Notes under the pieces: model-generated
What the model saw: the letters and a program-made list of their open reading frames with translations, nothing else
Told to the model about the DNA's origin: nothing
The model's database searches: none
Part shown: positions 47,966-50,597 of the stretch, piece after piece
How the letters are laid out: each line of letters begins with the position of its first letter
How positions within the stretch are numbered: position 1 is the first letter of the stretch
Source of the DNA: Peptococcaceae bacterium BRH_c4a
GTDB taxonomy: Bacteria; Bacillota; Desulfotomaculia; Desulfotomaculales; Desulfocucumaceae
Length of the DNA stretch: 64,000 nt
Assembly: GCA_000961585.1 (NCBI GenBank)
Contig: LADN01000070.1
Location: forward strand, 1-64,000
Reading direction: 5' to 3'
Position numbers and translations under genes: made by a program

Positions 47966-48206
47966 TTCTCAATTTACCTCCATTTCTCAAATTTCCGTCA
48001 TCCCTGATTATTTATTTGGTTGGTTACGTTATTTCCGTGGGGATGGGCAGGGGAAGGCCCCCTTAACCTTTCTTTTTCCCTTATAACCTGTGCTATCCTC
48101 CCTAAAATCCACTCAGGACAAGGAATTGCTAAACTATTTCCAATTGCTTTGTAGCAAGCCGTGTCCGATGCCCCGGGGATGTTGGTCCAATTGTCCGGGA
48201 GTCCCA

Positions 48207-48809
48207 TTAGACGCTCGCACTCGATGGGAAGTAATCTTCTGACTGCGTAACCCATAACAGGCCTGCTCTTTTTGCCTGCATGTAATGCTTCCCACAAAGC
48301 TCTTTCGAGTGTGCCAAGTCCCCACAAACTTTGCACTTCTTCCTTAGTGGGATATGGTAGGCTAGTGGATCCCCATATTTTTTGAAACGAATATAATGCT
48401 TGTTGCAAAATCCTAAACCCTTCGCTGGTTGCCCACAAATTACACAATATTTCTGCCGACTGTGCTTTAAGTTGTGACAACTCCTGCAAAGTCTCTCCAG
48501 GTTCTCCGGTTCGTTGTTCTTGTAATTGTTGTCCTTGTGGTGAACATCCATCGCATTCGGTTTGCCACACTCCACGCATGGTCCCGGCGGAATCAATGCC
48601 CTTGATCTGCTGTGGTTCGTTCCCCAGTTGTCCGACTCTGTTTTTGGTTTTCCCTTGAACCCTTCCGCCATGCACTTCTGATTGCAATATTTCCTTTTGT
48701 TGAAGTGAAACAAGCACTCCAAGTCCCCATTCGGCAAACGCTTTCGCTCCAATTTTGTCCCGCAGGTTTCGCAGTATTTTTCCGGGGTGGGCTTGATTGG
48801 CGTTGCCAT
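48207..48809 (-). CDS. HNH endonuclease-like protein nested in the methyltransferase
   Basis: 200 aa with its own GGAGGTG site seven bases before the ATG. Four or more CxxC pairs (YCETCGTKL, KYCNQKCMA, CVECGKPNAMD, CVICGQPAKG, CKVCGD) surround an HNH core, VHHKDNNYKNNEPENLERLCRSCHNLKH. It is read in another frame of the methyltransferase C-terminal part, whose own frame stays open across the whole gene and continues into motifs IX-X. So both frames seem to be coding. Confidence 0.8.
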   Translation of the reverse strand: MATPIKPTPEKYCETCGTKLERKRLPNGDLECLFHFNKRKYCNQKCMAEGFKGKPKTESDNWGTNHSRSRALIPPGPCVECGKPNAMDVHHKDNNYKNNEPENLERLCRSCHNLKHSRQKYCVICGQPAKGLGFCNKHYIRFKKYGDPLAYHIPLRKKCKVCGDLAHSKELCGKHYMQAKRAGLLWVTQSEDYFPSSASV

Positions 48810-50009
48810 CTTTTTGCACCTCCGTAATTAATCCGCCGTCACAGTCAAAATCTGTCCCAAGACCCCCGCCTCCCCGCTCCCTTGCCGGAATAGTGGGAGC
48901 AATTGATTCACAAATATATGTCGTGCTATCCGGCTTATCTGCCTTACTTGCCTGCGCTGATTGCGTGGGCTATTTCGTGCTGACCGCCGGGGCCAAAAGC
49001 TACGTGCGTAGCTCCACCTGCTCTCAGCGTCGGGCACTGTTCAATGGTTTCGCCCATGCTTCTGGTTTTCTCGCTTTGGTCGCCGTTAAAGCCAATAGCC
49101 AATTGAGCGACCGCTTGTCCACTGGCCAAGTCAAGGGTATACGACAATTCCTCCGTTATCCCCCATCCGTTACTGCTTGTCTGTGCTGTTCTTCGCACGG
49201 CGTAGGATGGTAATGGTTGGGCAACGCACGGTTGTCTCTGCCCTCCCTGCATCGTATTAAGAGTTGGACTTATACCCCCCCCCGTGAATTCTGGGGCATC
49301 CGTCTTGGCTTCTTGGTTCAAAGAGGACTGTCCCGCCTGTTCCTTCAGTGCCATCTCCAACACCGGCGGCAACTTTTTCCCTCGTTTTTCGGCCCTCCGG
49401 AGAATCCCAAGACATGCCTTCGGGCTCAAATAGTATTTCGGCGGAACATCTGTTTCTAAAATCGACGACAATGAAGATTCTACGCCTCCGTTGCGGAACT
49501 CCAAAGTGCTTGGCATCCAGGATCGTCCAAGCCAATTCTCTGTCGGATGTTCTAACCACTCCATGTTTTGCCCACTTTCCAGATCGAGGCATTGGAATGT
49601 CGGATTCCGTGAGTTCTTTGAGGACGGCAAGGAAGTCTTGTCCTTTGGAGGCAGAAAGGAGTCCAGGTACGTTTTCGAGAACAATGACTGCTGGATATGC
49701 TCCACTTGTAGCATCCCTCATTTCCCTAATAATCCTAACCAACTGAAAAAATAAACCCGATCTATTTCCTTGCAAGCCTTCTCTTTTTCCAGCCACTGAT
49801 AGGTCTTGACAAGGAAAGCCGCCCGCTATGATATCCACCGGTTCTATTTCGGCCCCATTAATATCTGTCACGCTTCCGAGGTGAACCATTTCGGGAAAGT
49901 GAGTTTTTGACACCGCTATTGGGAATGGTTCAATTTCCGATGCCCACAATGCCTTAATTCCGTGCCTACTGGCTGCTAAGGGAAAGCCAGCTATATTCCG
50001 TCAAACAGA

Positions 50010-50597
50010 CTACCCAACTTTAATTTTTGCTGTTTTAACATTGGCATCACCTGCCTTTCGCATCGCATTATGTATTTCCATGTGCTCCTTGAATGTAACA
50101 AGTTTCAGGTTTTCTATTCTGTTATCAGTTTTATTACCGTTTATATGATGAACTATTTCTGTGTCGGAATGTCCCGGCCCAAACCAATTTAAATATCTAC
50201 CTAAATACTTTTCCATAATCAACACATGCTCCATAACATAGCCACCACATTGTTTTGCTCTCGGATGCTCATGACATTTAATCAATACATAGCCCTTATC
50301 GCTTAATGTTTTACCGCCTTTCCAATATGAATTTTTGTTTCCATATTGGTTTCTAACGGCGCAACTCCTTGACTTAATGCCGTTGTTCTTCATGCATCGC
50401 CATATCGCTTTTTGTTGCACGCCTAATTTTTCAGCAACTTCTTTTTGTGTCATACCTGATTTATACATAATTTTTACCAGTTCAATATCTAACGGGGTAG
50501 ATTGCATTAATGACCTTGCTTTTCTCCACTCAGACGTACATCTTTTCTTAGCTGATTCTGACATTTTTCTTCTTGTTTCTTCTGAGAACTCTTTCAA
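50010..50597 (-). CDS. HNH homing endonuclease interrupting methyltransferase motif I
   Basis: 195 aa from TTG at 50597 with GGGAGGAG six bases upstream. N-terminal NUMOD/HTH-like region (MTQKEVAEKLGVQQKAIWR) for DNA recognition, then an HNH_3-type nuclease core MEHVLIMEKYLGR and EIVHHINGNKTDNRIENLKLV. It lies exactly between DG and IAG of motif I. With only about 14 and 15 bp between the gene and the exon-like flanks there is no room for a self-splicing intron, so it is a free-standing homing-type gene. Confidence 0.88.
   Translation of the reverse strand: MKEFSEETRRKMSESAKKRCTSEWRKARSLMQSTPLDIELVKIMYKSGMTQKEVAEKLGVQQKAIWRCMKNNGIKSRSCAVRNQYGNKNSYWKGGKTLSDKGYVLIKCHEHPRAKQCGGYVMEHVLIMEKYLGRYLNWFGPGHSDTEIVHHINGNKTDNRIENLKLVTFKEHMEIHNAMRKAGDANVKTAKIKVG

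Follow-up and report, generated by a model that had tools for sequence, protein, structure and literature searches.

A gene for an HNH endonuclease lies out of frame within a phage-type C5 methyltransferase (MTase) gene, and the MTase reading frame runs open across it. On the sequence evidence, it is probably a mobile, homing-type HNH gene that resides in the phage MTase gene without an intron or intein and with the host frame kept open. The host gene is readable through the insert because synonymous codon choice in the HNH gene removes every stop. We infer that both products are expressed, that the MTase is active and that the nuclease is capable of homing. The window, i.e., the whole stretch of 64,000 nucleotides analysed (Peptococcaceae bacterium BRH_c4a, contig LADN01000070.1), is a phage or prophage region in which the neighbouring genes are of phage type (terminase, portal, tape measure, PAPS reductase, sliding clamp, primase and helicase); the contig belongs to a 3.49 Mb bacterial assembly.

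The nested locus in the window

The locus and its surroundings carry the following features:

48207-48809, minus strand: nested HNH endonuclease ORF, 200 aa with an ATG start (sequence, PF01844, AlphaFold2)
48817-48823, minus strand: Shine-Dalgarno sequence GGAGGTG of the HNH gene, inside the MTase frame and about 11 nt upstream of the ATG
47998-48966, minus strand: C5-MTase open frame, 323 codons to the stop, spanning the whole HNH gene and reaching motifs IX and X
48187-48249, minus strand: MTase motif IX region YAVRRLLPIECERLMGLPDNW, with the insertion directly before the motif
48229-48234, minus strand: L-L codons TTACTT, which are L-T (YTAACN or YTGACN) in most relatives
48133-48153, minus strand: MTase motif X, YKAIGNS (sequence comparison)
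49365-49994, minus strand: MTase motifs I-VIII (PCQ, ENV, GVPQRRRRIF), PF00145 E=7.5e-34, in a frame that differs from that of the dual-coded part
48945-49246, minus strand: MTase middle segment in a third frame, resembling locus L021, with frame breaks at both ends
50010-50597, minus strand: second HNH gene (HTH + HNH_3), directly upstream of the MTase

The nested ORF encodes an N-terminal CxxC..CxxxC zinc site, an HNH core (C78-x2-C81..H90H91..N103..C108-x2-C111..H116) and C-terminal zinc fingers. Its score of 25.1 against a cut-off of 21.4, together with the HH..N..H core and the zinc cysteines, places it in the Pfam HNH family PF01844. AlphaFold2 predicts its structure with a mean pLDDT of 89.8, and no structural match was found in the PDB at E<=0.001. 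The original prediction that the HNH frame is real is borne out by this profile match, by the core with its zinc cysteines and by the strong ribosome-binding site. It had also stated that the MTase frame stays open for about 270 codons over the same DNA into motifs IX-X, and this is what we found: the MTase frame over the HNH gene forms a 273-aa ORF (47998-48819, minus strand), extended upstream as the 323-codon open frame, and its C-terminus matches PF00145 at 6e-8 and bears YAVRRLLPIECERLMG and YKAIGNS.

The further claim, that this DNA is MTase coding sequence, holds for the part open over the HNH gene but only in a qualified way for the part upstream, which is split over three frames in the window, with breaks near 49995, 49275-49250 and 48945. 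C5-MTase (PF00145) motifs I, IV, VI, VIII, IX and X are all recognisable; however, the N- and C-terminal parts lie in different frames in the window, whereas the MTase of the relatives is one continuous frame. An apparent extra TA is seen in motif I, a tract of nine G residues near 49275 and a third break near 48945; they could be due to decay, to phase variation at the G tract, or to sequencing or assembly error. In addition, L-L replaces L-T at the motif, changing the HNH stop from TAA to TAC, and the HNH protein is thus 8 residues longer. For the window copy only, there is slightly less than an even chance that the MTase is dead and the HNH alone still selected, the open frame being a relic; this would be compatible with the explanation given above for the family. 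The three upstream breaks and the L-L replacement point in this direction, while the dual-coded segment is still stop-free across 200 codons and the breaks, one of them at the 9-G tract, could be errors of sequencing or assembly.

The stop codon of the second HNH gene (50010-50597) falls within the codons for MTase motif I (LGS), but in a different frame.

Host frames, stop avoidance and selection

Relatives were sought with the HNH protein or HNH alignments only, so that the search was blind to the other frame. It yielded 70 non-redundant full-length relatives from many phyla, all of them nested. The host frame, HNH+2, is open in 70/70 and extends into a long host ORF, in which C5-MTase motifs can be recognised in most cases. 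Group A, the close family, consists of 28 loci including the window and was found in viral contigs, in Staphylococcus phage CUB-EPI_14 and in bacterial genomes (Dokdonella, Actinomycetales, Acidobacteriia, Virgibacillus, Methylococcaceae, Treponema and Akkermansia). At all group A loci the HNH+2 frame is open over the HNH gene and extends mostly for 300-990 codons, and HNH+1 is closed. A second search, started from group B (Komagataeibacter phage phiKX1 type), which is more distant, yielded 32 relatives of full length, again all nested, while none of 22 inspected HNHs sharing only the core with group B was nested. Some group B host ORFs did not match the MTase profiles used, yet they bear motif IX- and X-like sequence. 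There was no close match in 150 genomes of the host's near relatives (three weak HNH-core matches), none in 398 genomes of the phylum besides the host's own genome, and none in the plasmid sequences searched. The suggestion that dual coding is conserved and not due to chance was upheld, as HNH-only searches returned nested copies with the same frame open in every full-length relative.

Several individual loci may be mentioned here. In CUB-EPI_14, gp45 (ON325435; L012:1842-3647) was deposited as a DNA-cytosine methyltransferase only, with the HNH unannotated, which the nesting explains. In a Ktedonobacterales MAG (L065:170-409), the HNH frame is broken and HNH+2 is open; this copy may be a nested HNH in decay or reflect an error from low coverage. 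Two group B hosts (L042 and L013) carry a long ORF that precedes the HNH in the same frame and has the ending GQLNP.HSRWLMGYP.EWD. This ORF overlaps the MTase frame, and these genes may have been double-read already before the HNH arrived.

We defined risk codons as HNH codons before AA, AG or GA, at which a third-position T stops the MTase frame. At the 70 loci, T occurs at 0 of 2,091 risk codons, with about 750 expected from T3 use elsewhere in the same genes, whereas 24 unrelated control HNHs carry T at 206 of 470 risk codons (211 expected) and therefore exhibit no avoidance. In the window HNH, T is found at 0 of 55 risk codons, against an expectation of about 20.6, and 2,000 synonymous resampling draws never gave an open frame. 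When full-length HNH ORFs are counted, there are three T, one each in three loci whose host ORF ends within the HNH ORF. The corresponding frame of free-standing relatives from Vibrio phages nt-1 and 1.253.O contains 12 and 14 stops, respectively. As follows from the genetic code, every NNT has a synonymous NNC in the HNH+2 relation, and stops can thus be removed with the HNH residues unchanged. The original prediction had named insert-free MTases and common stops in the other frame as evidence against it; the former exist, but at the same 2,091 sites stops are absent rather than common.

Long open alternative frames are common in high-GC phages, and the second frame might therefore be open through base composition, with only one frame being real. 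This is hardly conceivable here, since many of the loci are AT-rich (GC3 0.23-0.5), the frame is open in at most 0.1% of synonymous resamplings at the loci tested, and control HNHs of the same collection have closed frames; by resampling and controls, the stop-avoidance test refutes a chance open frame.

The codon-position comparison proposed with the original prediction was carried out, and the two frames gave different results. The HNH frame is, as judged from sequence divergence, under strong purifying selection: its zinc and HNH residues are invariant across relatives, and in the closest pairs, at similar fourfold divergence, amino-acid identity is 0.77 for the HNH versus 0.45 for the MTase flank. 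The MTase-frame residues of the insert are mostly free, save for stop avoidance and one short motif. An overall amino-acid constraint on this part was rejected, as HNH fourfold sites vary about as much as the single-coded MTase flank, and the insert peptide used as a query retrieves only itself plus motif IX. In 12 diverged loci, MTase-frame conservation exceeds a synonymous null (z=9.8, an approximate value because the null treats loci as independent) and is centred on HNH residues 19-27, which read I-G-E-E-A-F-x-E-W in the MTase frame, with G and W present in 12/12.

Insertion, distribution and alternative explanations

With the MTases of phages SPR, SpGS-1 and Latilactobacillus phage TMW 1.1386 P1 as insert-free references, the insertion point lies between a variable region (DRHGVAVG or QGVV) and motif IX, RIR[RK]LTP. 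Insert and HNH gene differ in length by no more than a few codons, and the insert-free alleles are clean. In 18 of the 28 loci, the MTase L-T codons (YTAACN, YTGACN), read in the HNH frame, supply the HNH stop, and the last HNH residues (RSED, QSED, ESES) are an out-of-frame reading of VRR or RIRK. A Shine-Dalgarno match of at least 4 nt precedes the HNH in 24/28 relatives versus 28% of background start-like codons. Flank repeats at the site-A loci are not above background; group B uses other insertion points, and two of its loci have imperfect repeats of 41 and 56 bp flanking the HNH. The AlphaFold2 model of the MTase with the insert had too low a confidence to be used.

Among about 80 MTases chosen by C-terminus alignment, only two carry the insert, and of several hundred phage records in which this MTase C-terminus occurs, CUB-EPI_14 alone matched the window HNH at the corresponding position. 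The nested state is scattered over the MTase tree, requiring five changes, of which four are forced by well-supported branches, and nested and empty MTases occur as sisters (L037/L186 and L012/L074). The HNH and MTase trees agree in broad outline, with conflict only local, and no decayed nested HNH was found among the roughly 80 related MTases. The predicted mobility of the nuclease appears to be supported by the patchy distribution and the several insertion sites; tree agreement and the lack of decayed copies agree equally well with a homing cycle, with a useful function or with long-standing co-inheritance.

These results suggest the following series of events: the HNH coding sequence, and little else, is inserted, as comparison shows, directly before the motif IX codons (RRLTP) of MTases that otherwise resemble the SPR/phi3T and streptococcal phage enzymes; the host gene stays readable through the insert, synonymous choice in the HNH gene having purged every T3-AA, T3-AG and T3-GA, as the sequences likewise show; the HNH, judging from its Shine-Dalgarno sequence and purifying selection, would be translated from an internal start on the MTase mRNA and would end in most relatives at a stop supplied by the MTase L-T codons; and the nuclease may cut insert-free MTase alleles of co-infecting phages and then be copied into them, with the MTase presumably tolerating about 160-200 extra residues in the variable region between motifs VIII and IX.

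It is conceivable, but unlikely, that the two genes form a nested restriction-modification-like pair, in which the HNH cuts the unmethylated DNA of rivals, the surrounding MTase protects the phage, and nesting links the genes. Such a pair would agree with the constant occurrence of the HNH with the MTase, the strong purifying selection on the HNH and the broad agreement of the two trees. However, about 78 of 80 homologous MTases do without the HNH, members of the nested family sit at several different insertion points, the same kind of MTase harbours an unrelated nested HNH family at motif VIII, and the sites lie in conserved motif DNA, as with homing elements. Insertion at a conserved motif is also usual for introns and inteins, and HNH genes are common intron cargo; nevertheless, it is very improbable that a group I/II intron or an intein bearing the HNH is removed from RNA or protein. 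An Rfam scan gave no match at E<=1, and an insert consisting of the HNH gene plus a few codons has no room for a ribozyme, which together speak against a group I/II intron; an intein is contradicted by the HNH being out of frame, and a stop-free MTase frame would be unneeded if splicing took place.

Relation to known systems and a second nested family

A published precedent is the ShiLan domain found in methylases of mycobacteriophages, an open insertion that harbours an HNH in another frame (PMC11855218, PMC9957025), and a further case of this kind has been reported (PMC12613952). Both ShiLan and the present family have an HNH ORF out of frame in a phage methylase insertion with a stop-free host frame, no intron or intein features, a patchy distribution and a stop codon placed right where the insert ends; among the relatives studied here, the insert is absent from close homologues and its distribution is disjunct. 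The present family thus belongs to the ShiLan kind by its out-of-frame HNH in an open methylase gene and its lack of intron or intein features, but not to the ShiLan domain proper, which is defined by the same HNH family, methylase class and relative frame. The ShiLan gp65 methylase is of the DPPY type and the present one C5; the ShiLan HNH is of another type, the present HNH profile reaching only E=0.003 over the core; the host frame is HNH+1 in ShiLan and HNH+2 here; and its authors saw no ribosome-binding site, whereas a Shine-Dalgarno sequence is usual in the present family. Synonymous resampling of ShiLan alone gave a P of only about 0.02-0.03.

Other systems share some of these properties. 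The C5 MTases of SPR/phi3T/SPbeta and streptococcal phages are of the same kind, and their homology is contiguous to either side of the insertion point, but they have no insert. Free-standing phage HNHs (Vibrio phage nt-1 ORF189, phrog_1271) have a similar architecture of zinc site plus HNH, and the nt-1 HNH is about 38% identical to a group B member, but it is not nested, as its 12 stops in the corresponding frame indicate. HNH homing endonucleases of the I-HmuI type, borne by group I introns, likewise occupy a conserved site of a phage gene; in contrast to these, the present family has no ribozyme, and its host frame is read through, not spliced.

In a literature search covering sources outside preprints and most subscription journals, we found no paper on nested HNHs in C5 MTases. 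The kind of arrangement has already been published as ShiLan, and the C5-MTase version appears to be new; this is also the first statistical test of both frames that we know of. Long same-strand overlaps in phages are usually doubted, and 70 non-redundant loci provide a clean test: the host frame is kept stop-free purely via the nuclease's synonymous codons, and HNHs outside MTases have no such pattern. The published ShiLan cases thereby become part of a broad lifestyle of homing-type nucleases that appears to be convergent, and both the fate of the host enzyme and homing activity are now directly testable. In addition to introns and inteins, frame-nesting may offer homing nucleases a third general means of residing in a host gene; we consider the odds of this to be about even. 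Under this proposal, unrelated HNH families would each have adopted it on their own, in phage MTase genes at several positions and in both forward frames; host stops would be purged synonymously, the nuclease would borrow its stop from a host motif, and the insert as read in the MTase frame would have gained a conserved functional motif (the nine-residue one above).

The unrelated HNH family (HTH + HNH_3) that is nested out of frame at motif VIII in this kind of MTase was seen at L021:2400-3056 and L248:3001-3615. Its host frame is HNH+1, and a Shine-Dalgarno sequence is present. In these two genes, 9.6 and 8.7 host-frame stops, respectively, would be expected, and none was seen. L021 bears both nested HNHs.
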